From Tropicibacter oceani (GTDB lineage Bacteria; Pseudomonadota; Alphaproteobacteria; Rhodobacterales; Rhodobacteraceae), in the NCBI RefSeq assembly GCF_029958925.1, contig NZ_CP124616.1, positions 1,550,001 to 1,614,000 on the forward strand: DNA of 64,000 bases. Direction: 5' to 3'. Both the position numbers and the translations under genes were made by a program. Positions 51,310 through 58,069 of this stretch are shown here, piece by piece (the stretch's first letter is position 1; the number at the start of each line of letters is the position of its first letter). A model generated the notes under the pieces. The model saw nothing but the letters and a program-made list of their open reading frames with translations, had not been told where the DNA came from and searched no databases.

Positions 51310-52914
51310 CTAAAGCAGGGCGCGGATCGGTTCCAGCATGCCGTTCTTGCGCAGGGTCGTGACCGGATAGCTGGCGTCGTTCACAAGACGATCCAGCGAA
51401 AAGCCCGGTTCGATCTTGGTCAGCTTGTCGGCCACGGCCCGCGCCTTGTCCAGATCGCCCTGCAGGGCATACAGCGCCAAAAGCTGGCGATGCGCCGGGC
51501 GCGACAAGGGCGCCGAACGGGTCGCCGCCTCGCCTGCCTCGATGGCTTCGTCGGGCTTGTTGCAGGCAATGGCGATCAGGCAGCGCCCGGTGTCCCACCA
51601 ATGCTTGAAAGGCGAGGTCGAGGCGATGTGGCTGGCCCGTTTCGACGCGGCCAGCGCCTGATCGAATTGCCCGGCGAACAGATGCGCCTCGGCCAGCGAA
51701 TTCCAGGCAATGGCATTGGCGGGGTTGCGTTCCACCGCGCGCTTGGCCAGTTCGAAAAAGCCGGCGCCGTCGCGCAGGGCGGTGCCCTTGATCTTGGCGG
51801 CCAGGGCCTGGACCAGGGCATTGTCGGTGCCGCTTTCCAGCGCCTTGTAGTGCAGTTCGACCGCCTCTTCGCGCAGCCCGGCGGCGTCGTCCTCGGCCAG
51901 CTCGACGATCTGGATGGTGCGGATCAGCGCCGTCCAGGCCAGGTAGACGCCATTGTTGTCGTGGTCATAGGCCTGTTTCATCAGGCCGTAAGCCTCGCGC
52001 AGGGCGCTGCGTTCAAAACTGAACATCCGGTATAGCCCCAGCCGCGACAGGGCGGTCGCGCGGGTTTCGGGGCGCGTGCCTTCCAGCACCTGCGGCAGTT
52101 TTCCGATGATCTGGTCAGCGGCTTCGAAGACGGTCTTGCCGACCGAAACCTCGGTTTCCAGAATGTCGTTCAACCGGTCCACATGCTGCAGCTTGGAATA
52201 CAGGATGCGCCCGCTGCTTTGATGCACGGCCTTGATGAACACCGAATGACCGGTGTCGTCGGGCACCAGCTGGGTTGAAATCGTCACGTCGCTGGGCGGC
52301 AGGTTCGACAAACCGTCGGGCAGGTCGCGGTCCTGGCGCCAGGCGCGGATCTGTTCCGAGATGTTTTCGCCGATCTGGTTGGCCAGGATTTCCCCCATCA
52401 TCCTTTCGCGCCCGGGGTCTTCGGCCAAGGCGTTGCAATGGATCAGGATGCCGGTGGCGGGGGTCGGTTTGGCGCGGGCAATGCGGGTGCTGAGCGCGGC
52501 GCGCTCCATCCGCAGCCATTCCTCGAACTCGGGGTCGCGCACGTCGATGCCCTGCAGCAGCTCGACCCGGTCGTCCAGGGGCAGCACATCGTCAAGGCTG
52601 TCGACCCAGATCTGTTTGCGATCCAGCGACACGGTGGTGCGGTCGGCCCGCAAGGCATCGGCATGATCGCCCAGGGCGCTGCGCAGTTTGCTGAGCGCCT
52701 GGCGCAGGTTGGCGCTGGCCTGTTCGGGGCCAAAGGTCGACCACAGCTTGTCCTCGATCCAGCGCCGGGGGCGGGACATGCCGGGGCTGAGCGCCAGCAG
52801 CGCCAGCAGGGCCTGGTTCTTGGCGCCCTTGGGGGTCAGCACGTCACCCTTGGCCCCAACCATCCGAAGCGGGCCAAGCAGTGAGATGCGAAGCGTCAGG
52901 GGCCTGTTGTCCAT
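51310..52914 (-). CDS. SARP-like regulator with TolB-like and TPR regions
   Basis: The product has 534 residues. An N-terminal winged helix resembles SARP/BTAD regulators (LRISLLGPLRMVGAKGDVLTPKGAKNQALLALLAL, then LWSTFGPEQASANLRQALSKLRSAL). A middle section (VPDDTGHSVFIKAVHQSSGRILYSKLQHVDRLNDI) resembles the TolB-like domain of CadC-type regulators. The last 220 residues form TPR-like helical pairs. No transmembrane segment is seen. It faces the haloperoxidase gene across 162 bp and is its best candidate regulator. Confidence 0.8.
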   Translation of the reverse strand: MDNRPLTLRISLLGPLRMVGAKGDVLTPKGAKNQALLALLALSPGMSRPRRWIEDKLWSTFGPEQASANLRQALSKLRSALGDHADALRADRTTVSLDRKQIWVDSLDDVLPLDDRVELLQGIDVRDPEFEEWLRMERAALSTRIARAKPTPATGILIHCNALAEDPGRERMMGEILANQIGENISEQIRAWRQDRDLPDGLSNLPPSDVTISTQLVPDDTGHSVFIKAVHQSSGRILYSKLQHVDRLNDILETEVSVGKTVFEAADQIIGKLPQVLEGTRPETRATALSRLGLYRMFSFERSALREAYGLMKQAYDHDNNGVYLAWTALIRTIQIVELAEDDAAGLREEAVELHYKALESGTDNALVQALAAKIKGTALRDGAGFFELAKRAVERNPANAIAWNSLAEAHLFAGQFDQALAASKRASHIASTSPFKHWWDTGRCLIAIACNKPDEAIEAGEAATRSAPLSRPAHRQLLALYALQGDLDKARAVADKLTKIEPGFSLDRLVNDASYPVTTLRKNGMLEPIRALL

Positions 52915-53076: not shown

Positions 53077-54159
53077 ATGCCGCGGTTGGGCTATGACGGA
53101 TATGATGGGTATGATGGTTACGACGGGTATGACGGTTACGATGGCTATGATGGGTATGACGGCTATGACGGCTATGATGGCCGCGGCGGCAGGGCGCCCA
53201 GCGGCGCGCTAGGCGCGGCCCGCGACGGCACGGTCGGGTTCTGGGACGGCACCGCGGACCGCACCCCCAAAAGCACCGGACGCGACAGTTGGGCAGCCTA
53301 TCAGACGCTGGGCGGCACGCCCAAGGCAAAGGTCCTGGACCAGGCCATCGGGTCCATGTTCGACGTCGCGCTGGACAATGCGGCGCAGGCCAACACCATT
53401 GGCACGGTCCGCTGCCAGGGCCAGCCCATCGTCACCCTGCACAAGCCGGCCGATGATTTCCTGGCCCAGCACCAGCTGCCCTATCTGCGCACGGCGGCCG
53501 ATCTGCGCCCCGACAGGCTGGGCGAGATCAAGGTGCAGATGAGCAACCTCAAATCCTTTTTCGGGCTGGTGGGGCACATGTCCCCGGCGGCGACCAAGTG
53601 GACCTTGATGCTGCACTACGCGGTTTTGCGGCTGATGCAGGGGATCGAACATCCGCTCAAGTTCGGGTTTGACGTCGCCCGGCCCATCGCCATGTCTTAC
53701 AAGGTCCAGCCGATCATCCAGACGCCGGGGCATGGCGCCTGGCCTTCGGGACACGCGACCGAAGCCTTTGCACTGGCGACCCTGCTGACCCGGCTGTTCT
53801 ACAACCGCGCCTTTGACCCGGCGTCCGAGATCGCCTCGGGGAACGAGTTGTACCGCCATGCCGCCCGGATCGCGATGAACCGGACCATCGCCGGTGTGCA
53901 TTTCCCCACCGACAGCATGGCCGGCGCCGTGCTGGGCGTCACCGTAGCCGAGGCCCTGGTGCGCAAGCTGGAGGGCGAGACGCAGACAACCGCGCGGCTG
54001 TACCACGGCGATACCTATAAGGGTGATTTTAACCTTTCCCTGCTTTCTTCTGCCCTCGACGATGCCTCGGTGATCGAGACGTCGTCGGCCCCGCTGTCGG
54101 GTGACGCGGTGCCGACCTGGCTGGCCCGGATGTGGGCCACCGCCAAGGACGAGTGGTAA
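53077..54159 (+). CDS. Vanadium-dependent haloperoxidase / PAP2-fold enzyme with N-terminal (Tyr-Asp-Gly)10
   Basis: The product has 360 residues. Residues 6-35 are ten perfect YDG triplets, followed by a Gly/Arg-rich linker. The catalytic domain has the full PAP2/haloperoxidase signature: K195-x6-R202-P203, P223-S-G-H226, and R269-x3-G-x-H275-x3-D279, where His275 would bind vanadate or form phospho-His. It could be a haloperoxidase or an acid phosphatase; the spacing fits bacterial vanadium-haloperoxidase-like proteins. There is no signal peptide. AAGGGA precedes the ATG. Its own terminator follows. Confidence 0.85.
   Translation: MPRLGYDGYDGYDGYDGYDGYDGYDGYDGYDGYDGRGGRAPSGALGAARDGTVGFWDGTADRTPKSTGRDSWAAYQTLGGTPKAKVLDQAIGSMFDVALDNAAQANTIGTVRCQGQPIVTLHKPADDFLAQHQLPYLRTAADLRPDRLGEIKVQMSNLKSFFGLVGHMSPAATKWTLMLHYAVLRLMQGIEHPLKFGFDVARPIAMSYKVQPIIQTPGHGAWPSGHATEAFALATLLTRLFYNRAFDPASEIASGNELYRHAARIAMNRTIAGVHFPTDSMAGAVLGVTVAEALVRKLEGETQTTARLYHGDTYKGDFNLSLLSSALDDASVIETSSAPLSGDAVPTWLARMWATAKDEW
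53092..53181 (+). repeat. Ten 9-bp in-frame repeats encoding Tyr-Asp-Gly
   Basis: Ten units of TAY-GAY-GGN. The amino acids are identical in every unit while third bases vary (TAT/TAC, GAT/GAC, all four Gly codons), so the repeat is old or selected at protein level rather than a fresh slippage product. Confidence 0.97.
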
Positions 54160-54245: not shown

Positions 54246-56321
54246 TCATCCCACCAGCGGGGCGGTGTCCTTGTCCTGCGGCGCATCCATCCGGGGCGGC
54301 AGGTCGCGCAGCTGCACCAGGTAATCCCCAAGGCGGGCGGCCTTGCCGTCCTCGACGGCCAGCAGGTCGATCCTTGCCGGATCAAGATCGGCGCTTGGCC
54401 TGCCTTTGCCGGCGTTCTTGACGATCCGTTTCGCCGAATGGCCCAGGGCCCGGGTCAACCGCGCGGCAGCGGCGCTGGTCCCCCCAATGGCGCGGGCCGA
54501 GCCGCTGAGCGTACCGCTGGCCAGCAGGCCGCGATGAAACACCCCGTCCTGCGCGCTGACCGCGGCCGTGGGGCCGGGAACCGACCAGGGCGCGCCTTGG
54601 GCGCTGTAGCGGGCGGGTTGATCGCCTTGCGGGCCGCCGCGATGCGCTGCTGCGGCGACGCAAAACACCTGCCGGGCCGGGGCTGTCGCCATGGCGCTGT
54701 GCGTGCCTTCATGGGTGATCGGGCAACCGGGGGCATAGGCCCCGTAGTCCATCGCCTCGGGGTTCCAGTCATGCGCGTCGGCGTCGTCGAAATAGCTTTG
54801 CCGTGCCTGGGCGCGATAGCCGCGCAGGGCATCGTCGCGCTGGATTTGCAGGACCGGCTCCAGCGCCTCGGGGCCCTCGTGGCGCAGCGTGACGCGCCAT
54901 GCGCCAGAAGGGGCCTCGGGCTCGGCCTGCTTGCGCGCTTCTGTGGGGGCAAGGGCCAGGACCACATGGGCCGGGCTCACCACTCCGGTGCCGAAGTCCC
55001 GCGCGGGCACGTGGTACAGGCGGGCGATGGCCTGGCCGTCCTGTTCAAGACTGCGTAGCTGGCCGGGGGCAAGTGGGCCAAACCCGGACGTCGTGCCATC
55101 GGGCGCGGTCAGGGCGACCTGAAGATCGCCCATATCCCTGCGCGGCAGGCGCAGTTCCAGGTAGCTTGGGGTCTGGTCGCAGGGTTGCACGCGCCAGGTG
55201 ATGTCGCGGTCGGTGCGCTTGCGATTGTCTGCCGCCTTGTACTTAAACCGGGCAACCAGGTGCCCCTGGTGGTCATTGCCAAAGGACCAGACGATGCGCA
55301 CCGGCTGGCCAGTGACCCGTTCCCATTCCGCCGCCTCGCGGGCGATCTGGTATTCGACAAAGCGGCTGCCGTCCTTGGGGCCGGCCAGCACGCCCAGCGA
55401 CAGGTTGACGATCACCGGCGCGGTCTTGTCGATCTCGCCGGCGCGGCGCAGGATCCAGCGCACCGCCTGCACCATGTAGCTTTCGAAGCGGGTGCCCGAG
55501 GTGTCCTCGATCGCCTGTGGCGGCAATTGCACCGCCAGCAGCGGCCAGTCGCGAACCGCGTCGTCGCCCGCCGGATCAGCCCCTGCCGCCAGATCAAGGA
55601 TATGGGTGCCGTGGGTCGTGGAAAACCCGGTGATCTGACGGGCCTCGCCTTTGAACAGGCGATCGTTCAGCGCGGCATAGGCGGCACATTCGGGCTGCGC
55701 CAGCAGGGCGGTGATCTGGGTCTGCGACAGGGTTTCGCCCAGCAGGACACCGCCACCGGGCCCGCGCTGTTCCAGCGACTGGAGCCAGAGCGCGTGAAAG
55801 CGGCTGGTCTGCGTGCCATCGGCCGCTTGCCTGCGGAACCGGGCGTTGAGAAAGCCGATGCCGTCGTCGACGACCGCGATGATCGGAGCACCCTTTTGCG
55901 GGTTGGCCGGGGCCGGGGCGACGGGCGCGGCAGGGCTGGCCGCATCGGAAATCACCACGGGAACGCCGGTATCGAGAACCTCGAACAAGGCGGCGAATTC
56001 GGCATCCGACGTGCCAAGGCGGCGGTAGAGCGCATATTCGTCCGGCAGTCCGGCCAAGGCATCCGTGGGGGCCGCCCGCGCCGTCAGCTCGGCATATTCA
56101 TGGCCATCCATCAAAAGCCGCCCCGAACCATCCGCCAGCGCTGCGATCAGCCCCGTGCGCGCGCCCGGTCCGACAAGGCGCACAAAGATCGGCTCGTACT
56201 CCTGGCCGGAGTCGGGTTGCGCAGGCGGCAAGGCCGCGCGCCGACGCGTCAGCAGGTCCGACCAGTCCAGATAGGCATCGCGAAAGCGCGCATCGCGCGC
56301 GTCGGTCCATTTCAATCCCAT
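54246..56321 (-). CDS. S8 family subtilisin-like serine protease, no signal peptide
   Basis: The product has 691 residues. The catalytic triad is Asp152 (AVVDDGIG), His237 (THGTHILDLAAG) and Ser616 (GGTSAAAA); oxyanion-hole Asn349 is in WSFGND. About 190 residues between the Asn and a late Ser segment form an inserted, probably beta-rich domain. The N-terminal 140 residues are not a typical propeptide, and no Sec or Tat signal is visible, so it may act in the cytoplasm. AGGAGG 5 nt before ATG 56321 sets the start. It is flanked by two haloperoxidase-like genes. Confidence 0.88.
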   Translation of the reverse strand: MGLKWTDARDARFRDAYLDWSDLLTRRRAALPPAQPDSGQEYEPIFVRLVGPGARTGLIAALADGSGRLLMDGHEYAELTARAAPTDALAGLPDEYALYRRLGTSDAEFAALFEVLDTGVPVVISDAASPAAPVAPAPANPQKGAPIIAVVDDGIGFLNARFRRQAADGTQTSRFHALWLQSLEQRGPGGGVLLGETLSQTQITALLAQPECAAYAALNDRLFKGEARQITGFSTTHGTHILDLAAGADPAGDDAVRDWPLLAVQLPPQAIEDTSGTRFESYMVQAVRWILRRAGEIDKTAPVIVNLSLGVLAGPKDGSRFVEYQIAREAAEWERVTGQPVRIVWSFGNDHQGHLVARFKYKAADNRKRTDRDITWRVQPCDQTPSYLELRLPRRDMGDLQVALTAPDGTTSGFGPLAPGQLRSLEQDGQAIARLYHVPARDFGTGVVSPAHVVLALAPTEARKQAEPEAPSGAWRVTLRHEGPEALEPVLQIQRDDALRGYRAQARQSYFDDADAHDWNPEAMDYGAYAPGCPITHEGTHSAMATAPARQVFCVAAAAHRGGPQGDQPARYSAQGAPWSVPGPTAAVSAQDGVFHRGLLASGTLSGSARAIGGTSAAAARLTRALGHSAKRIVKNAGKGRPSADLDPARIDLLAVEDGKAARLGDYLVQLRDLPPRMDAPQDKDTAPLVG

Positions 56322-56581: not shown

Positions 56582-58069
56582 ATGACCCGACACACCCCGC
56601 TTACCCATGGCTTCCTGCGCGTCGTCCAAGGCACTGGCCCGGCGCAGCCGATGCGCCCCGAACCGCTTGACCTGCCCGCGGCCCCGCGTTTGTCGGTTTC
56701 GGAACTGGCGGCGGAAATGGCCGAACTGTTTGCCCTGGCGCTGATGTCCGAATGCCACCTGGACGATCTGGACAATCCCCATTGCACGGTGCGCATCAAT
56801 GGCGCGACCCGGTTCAACCTGCACGAGCTGTTGTGCGAAATGCGCAGCCTGCCTTGGTGTGATGCTGCGGCGCCCTTGCCGGATCTGGCGGGGGCGGCGT
56901 CGCCCCCGGCCGCCGAGCGCCGGGCGATCCGGTGGAACGGTCAGGCGCAGATGACCTTGAAAACCCTGTTGCGATCCGGAGTCCGGCGCCCTGACGGTGC
57001 CGGGATGCGGCTGTCGGGGCTGTTTGCCACCGATCACCCGGTCGGTCCGGCCAAGGGGCCGCTGCCCGCGCCCGCCGCGTCGGCGCAACTGTCCGAGTGG
57101 TCGCAATGGTGCGCGGCGCACAGCGGCGCGGGGTTGGCATTGCCGGGGCGCGGCGCGGCCGGAGCGCAGATCACCACACTGGCGCAGCTGGCCCGGCACG
57201 TCTTTGATGCGCCCCCGGCGCGGGCCTTTCATTGCGCCACGCTGGCCAGCCTTGCGCATGGCACACCCTTTGACGAAGGGCTGGCGCCCGTGCCCGGTAC
57301 GCCCGGACGCTGGACGGGTGGCCGCCTTTTCGCGCTGATGGCCCAGGCCGAAGAGCAGGCGCGCTGGGCGGCCCTGCGCCGTCTGGCCCAGGCCGACAGG
57401 CTGACCCGCCCCGGCGTGACCGCGGCGCGGATGACCGTCTACCTGGCCCGCGAAGAGCGGCAAGAGCACATGCCCGATGCGCGCTATCGCCATGCGGCCG
57501 ACATGCTGGCCCGCCACAGCGCGAACCTGCTGGGCTGGGTCAGCCACGCCAACGCCGCCGCCCGCGGCCCGCAGCGGTTCGACCAAAGCCTGTTCCTGCC
57601 GCTCGGCAGCTGTTCGGGCTCGGTCTACCCGTCTGATGCCGCCGCGCATGTGGTGGTTGCCGGGGCGCTGGCCACCTTGATGAAGGCGGTGTTCGACACT
57701 TCGCGGCCCCGTCACCTGCGGCTGGCGGGCAAATCGGCGGCGCCCATGGACCTTGCCGACGAACTGGACCTGCTGGTCGCCAATACGGCCATGGCGCGGG
57801 TGGTGTCCGGCGGGTTCTACCCCTCCGAAAACCACCAGGACATGCGGCTGGGACAGGCCATCGCGCTTCAGGTCTTGCGCCAGGCGCTGTCCGAGGACAA
57901 CCGCAGCGCAACGCTGAGTTTCCGCGACTTTGACGGCAGGGCGCTGCGCATCGTTGCGCATCCGCGCCAGTTCGGGCGCGGGCTGGTCGAATTGCGCGAT
58001 GCGGCCGGCAGCCTGCCCTGGCCGCAAATGGCGGCGCCCCCGGCGGCCCACCTGACGGCGGTGATGTAG
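56582..58069 (+). CDS. Haloperoxidase-like protein lacking vanadate-binding residues
   Basis: The product has 495 residues. The C-terminal half follows the vanadium haloperoxidase pattern (VYPSDAAAHVVVAGALATLMKAVFD, then NTAMARVVSGGFYPSENHQDMRLGQAIALQVL). The key residues differ: the SGH element is AAH (His356 kept), the covalent His position is Phe412, the partner Asp is Glu416, and no K-x6-RP motif is evident upstream. It is probably a non-catalytic homologue. There is no signal peptide. It starts 260 bp from the divergent subtilase start. Confidence 0.7.
   Translation: MTRHTPLTHGFLRVVQGTGPAQPMRPEPLDLPAAPRLSVSELAAEMAELFALALMSECHLDDLDNPHCTVRINGATRFNLHELLCEMRSLPWCDAAAPLPDLAGAASPPAAERRAIRWNGQAQMTLKTLLRSGVRRPDGAGMRLSGLFATDHPVGPAKGPLPAPAASAQLSEWSQWCAAHSGAGLALPGRGAAGAQITTLAQLARHVFDAPPARAFHCATLASLAHGTPFDEGLAPVPGTPGRWTGGRLFALMAQAEEQARWAALRRLAQADRLTRPGVTAARMTVYLAREERQEHMPDARYRHAADMLARHSANLLGWVSHANAAARGPQRFDQSLFLPLGSCSGSVYPSDAAAHVVVAGALATLMKAVFDTSRPRHLRLAGKSAAPMDLADELDLLVANTAMARVVSGGFYPSENHQDMRLGQAIALQVLRQALSEDNRSATLSFRDFDGRALRIVAHPRQFGRGLVELRDAAGSLPWPQMAAPPAAHLTAVM

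Follow-up and report, generated by a model that had tools for sequence, protein, structure and literature searches.

The closest described relatives of the enzyme reported here are the class A acid phosphatases (PhoN/PhoC), with which it has the PAP2 fold and the catalytic motifs in common, and the vanadium bromoperoxidases (1qi9), with which it shares the PAP2 motifs and a TPxHxxxPSGHATx stretch. Compared to class A acid phosphatases, it shows ~20% identity, carries ~80 extra N-terminal residues including a tandem peptide array at or near the N-terminus, and sits in a module with a regulator and, in many cases, a protease. Compared to bromoperoxidase 1qi9, its core is only ~324 aa long and its fold less similar, and the haloperoxidase class is a prediction here. 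The S8 protease of the module has its nearest fold among the Csp subtilases of clostridial spore germination, but at only 13–16% identity (Csp rows), and the regulator has the domain layout of SARP/AfsR-type winged-helix TPR regulators, of which it is a subtype that often, though not always, stands beside array-PAP2 genes. Silk, antifreeze glycoproteins, and Gly-Ala repeats are likewise built from short units rich in small residues, and there the unit is a family signature; here, by contrast, homologues swap the unit and keep the uniformity. RTX calcium-binding repeats are Asp-rich nonapeptides, and the arrays described below do not belong to them, with periods of 2 to 6 residues and Asp or Glu in only 14 of 135 units. 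The RRNPP/Phr and dikaritin systems combine a TPR regulator, an S8 protease, and a repeated short peptide; in our case, however, the array is part of an intact enzyme, and a divergent group of loci has no protease.

The window analyzed here is a 64,000-nucleotide stretch of the Tropicibacter oceani genome and contains the following features:

51310–52914, minus strand: SARP-type winged-helix and TPR regulator, divergently transcribed, with a homologue near the enzyme in related loci
53077–54159, plus strand: array-bearing PAP2 enzyme (class A acid phosphatase / vanadium haloperoxidase fold), 360 aa
53092–53181, plus strand: (YDG)10 peptide array, residues 6–35, predicted to be disordered
53659–53685, plus strand: catalytic motif K195-x6-R202-P203, with K and P invariant and R in at least 90% of 74 sequences
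53731–53754, plus strand: H219 and PSGH (223–226), with H219 invariant in 74 sequences and also found in algal vanadium bromoperoxidase
53881–53913, plus strand: catalytic motif R269-x5-H275-x3-D279
54246–56321, minus strand: Csp-like S8 subtilase of ~691 aa, with D152, H237, N349, and S616 invariant in 57 sequences
56582–58069, plus strand: a further protein, a relative of algal vanadium bromoperoxidase, whose PSGH motif is altered to PSDAAAH

The enzyme belongs to the PAP2 superfamily by its K-x6-RP, PSGH, and R-x5-H-x3-D motifs together with a PAP2 fold, and it is intact, as an earlier sequence-only reading had claimed: all PAP2 motifs are present, and its single Pfam domain (PF01569) scores 51 bits against a cut-off of 27.2. 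In the structure model, the core has a mean pLDDT of 89.7 (pTM 0.86), and residues 1–37 stay below a pLDDT of 50. The best structural match of this model is the class A acid phosphatase PhoN (2akc; Z 18.0, rmsd 2.6, 193 residues aligned), followed closely by a second acid phosphatase (7f17; Z 17.9), compared to a Z of 13.9 for vanadium bromoperoxidase 1qi9 (rmsd 3.3, 197 residues aligned). However, an invariant His seven residues before the His of PSGH aligns with 1qi9 and is absent from 7f17, and we take it to be the counterpart of the second active-site His of this bromoperoxidase. The enzyme may or may not be the haloperoxidase of the first reading: the additional His points to one, and the overall fold comes nearest to the class A acid phosphatases. 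We regard it as a soluble PAP2-fold enzyme, putatively either a phosphatase or a haloperoxidase.

From its ATG at 53077, the protein reads MPRLG(YDG)10RGGRAPS..., and the ten repeats are thus confirmed at the position where they had been noticed. They are written with a mix of codons (TAT/TAC, GAT/GAC, and all four GGN) in seven distinct DNA units when read in the phase GYD, and all 13 codon differences are synonymous and none non-synonymous; the earlier observation of a peptide that is held while its DNA drifts is correct and, as shown below, generalizes to 135 of 137 homologues. Judging by the sequence, the array is translated, because the in-frame differences all fall on wobble positions and the arrays of homologues lie close to the start Met (in 49 of 76 homologues, with predicted start codons, the array begins 4 residues past the closest Met upstream). 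At 74 of 76 array loci, a small residue (A, P, S, T, G, or V) follows this Met, suggesting that the Met is probably removed and that the array lies close to a free N-terminus. The nearest relative, a protein from the same genus (apparently Pacificoceanicola onchidii; record L071 is the same protein), is 79% identical and begins with MPRFG(YDG)11. Tyr and Asp are kept in all 10 units of the window protein and in all 11 of this relative.

We collected homologues from 394 genomes of the family (96 with matches) and from a named collection (best 80 of 548 confirmed loci), which yielded 137 distinct members above 110 bits. An array was called from at least 12 residues of perfect repeat, a detector that can miss decayed arrays. 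A short tandem peptide array lies ahead of the PAP2 domain in 135 of the 137 distinct homologues; one of the two exceptions is cut by a contig end (L101), and the other has (GAQ)4 in another frame, apparently through a frameshift (L021). The 135 arrays are built from 84 different units, among them YDG, WEG, HEG, NQG, KEG, NSQ, NHQ, VEA, GGQ, TQG, SQG, QAA, GRA, NAE, GAGS, GQ, GS, GKM, GGF, AGR, and many more, and the unit has changed at least 89 times on the core tree (a quick tree without mixture model). Relatives without the repeat had been named as a possible refutation, and YDG is indeed absent from relatives, yet another uniform repeat stands in its place. The period of the 135 arrays is three residues in 106, four in 22, two in 4, six in 2, and five in 1, with a median array length of 30 residues. 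Gly is present in 106 of the 135 units, at least one of G, A, S, or N in 134, and Cys in none. Fifteen units consist of G, A, and S only, 19 are basic and 7 acidic; any of Y, W, H, M, or K occurs in 46, and units like GGA, GAGS, GQ, and GNA contain none of these and neither Asp nor Glu. Pairwise comparison of 63 loci showed matching unit composition for 23 of the 24 pairs whose cores are more than 70% identical, for 13 of 50 at 60–70%, and for 12 of 1867 at 30–60%. Genomes with two or three members show different units among these members in 17 of 17 cases, and the array as a common tag of paralogues in one genome was rejected on these grounds. We conclude that the repeat unit is replaced wholesale between lineages, with the copies inside each protein kept identical.

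The association of arrays with PAP2 enzymes is far beyond chance: the best 80 of 548 loci contain 2100 open frames that reach 200 aa or more, and 82 of them carry a perfect array (4 or more copies that span 12 aa or more), 79 together with PAP2 motifs. Arrays on other genes of related loci amount to a single (DPV) linker besides antisense shadows in a strict scan, and a looser scan found three other array frames besides the PAP2 ones. The linker is (DPV)17 with seven distinct DNA units and belongs to a separate, PAP2-unrelated protein near an array-PAP2 locus (L146:13242-15899).

Inside the 135 arrays, we counted 1867 synonymous and 57 non-synonymous differences from the commonest codon, compared to a chance expectation of 27% synonymous and 73% non-synonymous changes, and the measured omega is 0.011. 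Since arrays are found by their own repetition, we made a detector-matched simulation. The observed N:S ratio of 0.031 fits an omega of ~0.01 or less in this simulation with the same detector, as do the near-complete detection and the absence of non-synonymous changes from 112 of 135 arrays. At a simulated omega of 1, by comparison, 0 of 400 arrays were recognizable at each of three settings (in a model without slippage). Selection is also stricter inside the array than on the enzyme core, where a comparison of 14 Phaeobacter records gave 14 non-synonymous and 52 synonymous codon changes. Strong purifying selection thus keeps the copies within each array identical, and the swapping of units between lineages together with identity of copies within each protein shows that what selection keeps is uniform periodicity and not a particular side chain.

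Among the 107 of 135 arrays that are perfect and have at least six units, adjacent units differ more in DNA than in permuted order (lag 1, Z 12.7, 94 of 107 arrays; 23% of the 107 singly at p < 0.05), and units two apart are more alike (lag 2, Z −6.5). No dip was seen at lag 4 in these arrays, and a higher-order DNA repeat behind the codon alternation is therefore not favored. We read the surviving arrays as those with non-identical neighbor DNA and hence less slippage.

Change at the level of strains could be followed in Phaeobacter, which accounts for 21 of 35 matches in a search of plasmid records. All 15 of these 21 Phaeobacter records that were read have NSF arrays, with five copies in 1, six in 12, and seven in 2. 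Two of them, with six (L239) and seven (L244) NSF copies, lie just one 9-bp unit apart and have cores that are 100% identical over 1062 bases. Copy number thus moves quickly in Phaeobacter and the unit does not, and diversification of the unit by kin recognition or an arms race is not supported, with only copy number differing among the 15 records. The Phaeobacter module (L238–L252) resides on rep_cluster_636 plasmids, many of them typed as conjugative, and its genes carry the NCBI names “winged helix-turn-helix domain-containing protein”, “phosphatase PAP2 family protein”, and “S8 family serine peptidase”; the annotation of strain M647 (L252) gives all three genes as shorter pieces. A plasmid of Paracoccus zhejiangensis has array-PAP2 and S8 genes near the type VI secretion ATPase gene tssH (L253:463-3210), and the array there consists of SGH with SGQ and SGL variants.

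The gene neighborhood defines an accessory, conserved, mostly alphaproteobacterial module of SARP/TPR regulator, soluble PAP2-fold array enzyme and, in the main group, Csp-like S8 subtilase. In a scan of the 80 named loci (best 80 of 548) and L227, 76 of the named loci have the S8 gene no more than 600 bases from the enzyme and 79 have it within 2 kb; the only one without a nearby S8 gene ends at a contig edge. The regulator is likewise found within 600 bases in 76 of these 80 and within 2.3 kb in 77, with the enzyme at a contig edge in the other 3, and it is encoded on the opposite strand in 71 of 76 loci. All-against-all clustering of 81 loci recovered the three families of the module in 73, 72, and 71 loci and no other gene family as common as this trio. 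The next family, found in 25, is the bromoperoxidase-like protein, an optional neighbor. Its representative in the window (56582–58069) is related to the Corallina vanadium bromoperoxidase (E 1e-13), and the change of PSGH to PSDAAAH suggests that it may be inactive. The structure model of the S8 protein has its nearest fold in clostridial Csp proteases (PDB 4i0w and 9pr9; E 2e-20), and we presume from the subtilase motifs that its D152, H237, N349, and S616 are the catalytic residues. The regulator combines an N-terminal SARP-like winged helix with C-terminal TPRs and has a mean column identity of 42%. Among the PADLOC defense models, none fits the PAP2 enzyme, the S8 protease, or the bromoperoxidase-like protein of the window, and the regulator matches two models only weakly (E 0.0076 and 0.018).

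Partial Mantel tests on the 63 loci with three complete genes, with core distance removed, detected no coevolution of unit and S8 protease (partial r 0.013, p 0.415 by physicochemical distance; 0.033, p 0.259 by composition). For unit and regulator, the correlation is weak by composition (0.119, p 0.003) and absent by physicochemical distance (−0.035, p 0.708).

A divergent group, related to the main group by profile score only, comprises 19 loci that encode regulator and PAP2 protein on one strand, the regulator just upstream and the open frames anywhere from 88 bases overlapping to 122 bases apart. Eighteen of the 19 have arrays (codon differences N:S 7:178), and an S8 gene is found in 0 of 19 within the stretch read; processing by an S8 protease can therefore not be the general role of the array. 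These arrays begin 4–109 residues into the open frame and include (SR)12, (NR)14, (NK)8, (TK)13, (SK)11, (NRG)13, (NRD)13, (TGN)6, (DAR)7, (AGN)6, an imperfect GL array, GGNWF x3, and others. Polar-plus-basic units (SR, NR, NK, TK, SK, NRG, and NRD) occur at L213, L214, L223, L224, L226, L229–L233, and L236, in contrast to the main group, whose units vary freely. Twelve of the 19 loci were found via the regulator and seven via the PAP2 gene, so that only the latter seven test the link of regulator and array independently (7 of 7). Another locus, L186, has a QTQ array and all three module genes.

We further read 25 regulator regions from a subset of the regulator-bearing genomes without enzyme match, one of which is a previously known locus (L217). 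An array-PAP2 gene adjoins the regulator in 13 of the 25, including a (GVH)9 member cut by its contig (L220). Ten show neither an array protein nor a PAP2 relative beside the regulator in a neighbor listing made without family searches (L215, L216, L218, L219, L221, L222, L225, L228, L234, and L235); of these, L222 begins right at the edge of a contig, L216 consists of a short contig, and L218 and L219 have a neighbor that by eye resembles the bromoperoxidase-like protein. A PAP2 relative without array stands beside the regulator in L227 and L237, the latter relative being weak (26.7 bits). The enzyme of L227 (130 bits, outside the 137) also has an altered PSGH motif, its S8 gene is interrupted by a stop, and neither S8 gene nor regulator lies within 600 bases of it. 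Generic PAP2 proteins have no array, regulator, or S8 protease in the 12 loci inspected.

Our tentative first choice among mechanisms is a disordered, unit-agnostic array whose strict periodicity serves docking or assembly, with the regulator's TPR domain as the likeliest partner. This domain is the first suspect because the regulator is the only other gene observed beside the enzyme in both locus groups. Docking or assembly is favored because repetition is kept and letters are not, because generic PAP2 proteins and the decayed L227 have no array, and because the array starts close to the Met in the main group and 4–109 residues into the frame in the divergent one, with a TPR regulator in both. 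As a multivalent, register-free segment, the array would bind the TPR domain of the cognate regulator and tether the enzyme to it, the tether would couple the state of the enzyme to transcription, and the S8 protease, where present, may trim the enzyme or release it from the tether. The better conservation of the regulator (42%) next to freely varying units argues against side-chain recognition, and evidence against TPR docking comes from the missing coevolution of unit and S8, the weak and inconsistent signal for unit and regulator, and the regulators without array partner. We nevertheless rank TPR docking ahead of two alternatives that seem unlikely to us, and about equally so. One is a tail for homotypic assembly, in which the arrays of several enzyme chains would pack into a bundle, sheet, or condensate in any register and different units would keep paralogues apart. 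Such packing accounts for why uniformity matters and identity does not, and it agrees with the differing units in all 17 multi-member genomes and with the 15 of 135 units made of G, A, and S only, which are silk-like; however, the 19 basic and 7 acidic units should repel each other, and the single-chain model shows only disorder. The other is proteolytic control, with the array as a low-complexity segment that determines the attack on the enzyme, by offering a series of identical sites to the S8 protease or by giving AAA+ proteases so poor a hold that the folded domain is spared. In its favor are an S8 gene that lies close to the enzyme in 79 of 80 loci (best 80 of 548) and encodes invariant catalytic residues, the broken S8 gene of array-less L227, and a report that low-complexity tails can impair ClpX (PMC9531181). 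Yet 18 of 19 divergent loci keep their arrays without S8 gene in the stretch read, and a single substitution should hardly matter to a protease, which is at odds with an omega of ~0.01.

A multicopy precursor from which the S8 protease frees short peptides to be read by the TPR regulator appears improbable, though by analogy the repeated short peptide, the S8 protease, and the TPR regulator would be fitting parts and the units are lineage-specific. The sequence-only reading had raised a precursor cut by the neighboring protease, and the proximity of the protease in 79 of 80 main loci (best 80 of 548) fits this; but among the 19 divergent loci, of which 18 retain the array, none has the protease in the stretch read, so that not every array is accompanied by the dedicated protease expected of such a precursor. 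In addition, divergent arrays start up to 109 residues into the frame, no unit–S8 coevolution was detected at 63 loci, plain units like GQ and GGA would make poor signals, and no secretion signal was noticed by eye. Two further explanations are very improbable. A functionless, slippage-prone minisatellite homogenized by replication errors would explain the single-unit copy change between otherwise identical genes (L239 and L244), but a neutral process cannot yield an N:S of 57:1867 where 73% non-synonymous changes are expected, neutral arrays were undetectable in the simulation without slippage (0 of 400 at each of three settings), and slippage makes neighbors alike, the opposite of the lag 1 result; we rejected it on these three counts. 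Chemistry specific to YDG, that is, self-halogenation, dityrosine cross-links, or binding of Ca2+ or vanadate by Tyr and Asp as first suggested for the tail, fits the Tyr and Asp in every unit of the window protein and its nearest relative. As a general role it fails, because such residues are missing from homologues with an equivalent gene neighborhood (of 135 units, 12 have Tyr and 14 have Asp or Glu), and it could be at most a local extra.

A wider reading, itself with a probability approaching but not reaching even, is that repetitiveness itself is selected: the unit would be near neutral in the long term, uniformity held at an omega of ~0.01, and the DNA kept non-repetitive by codon alternation, with the repetition read by backbone-level or register-free binding to the TPR regulator or to the array itself and thereby controlling a cytosolic PAP2 phosphatase or haloperoxidase.

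Literature searches aimed at the array or the module, mostly in papers outside subscription, found no description of either. The parts are members of known families, and the behavior of the array and the module as a whole match no known kind to our knowledge. Protein sequence is usually explained by residue-specific roles, whereas more than 100 homologues here keep uniform repetition and exchange the residues, which raises the question of how repetition can be recognized regardless of the residues that form it; a new way of docking or assembling may be the answer, for which the 84 units of the set examined are a natural library. The arrays also are a clean natural record of how tandem repeats originate, turn over, and are protected from slippage, and they define an unnamed regulator–enzyme(–protease) module that in Phaeobacter is plasmid-borne.
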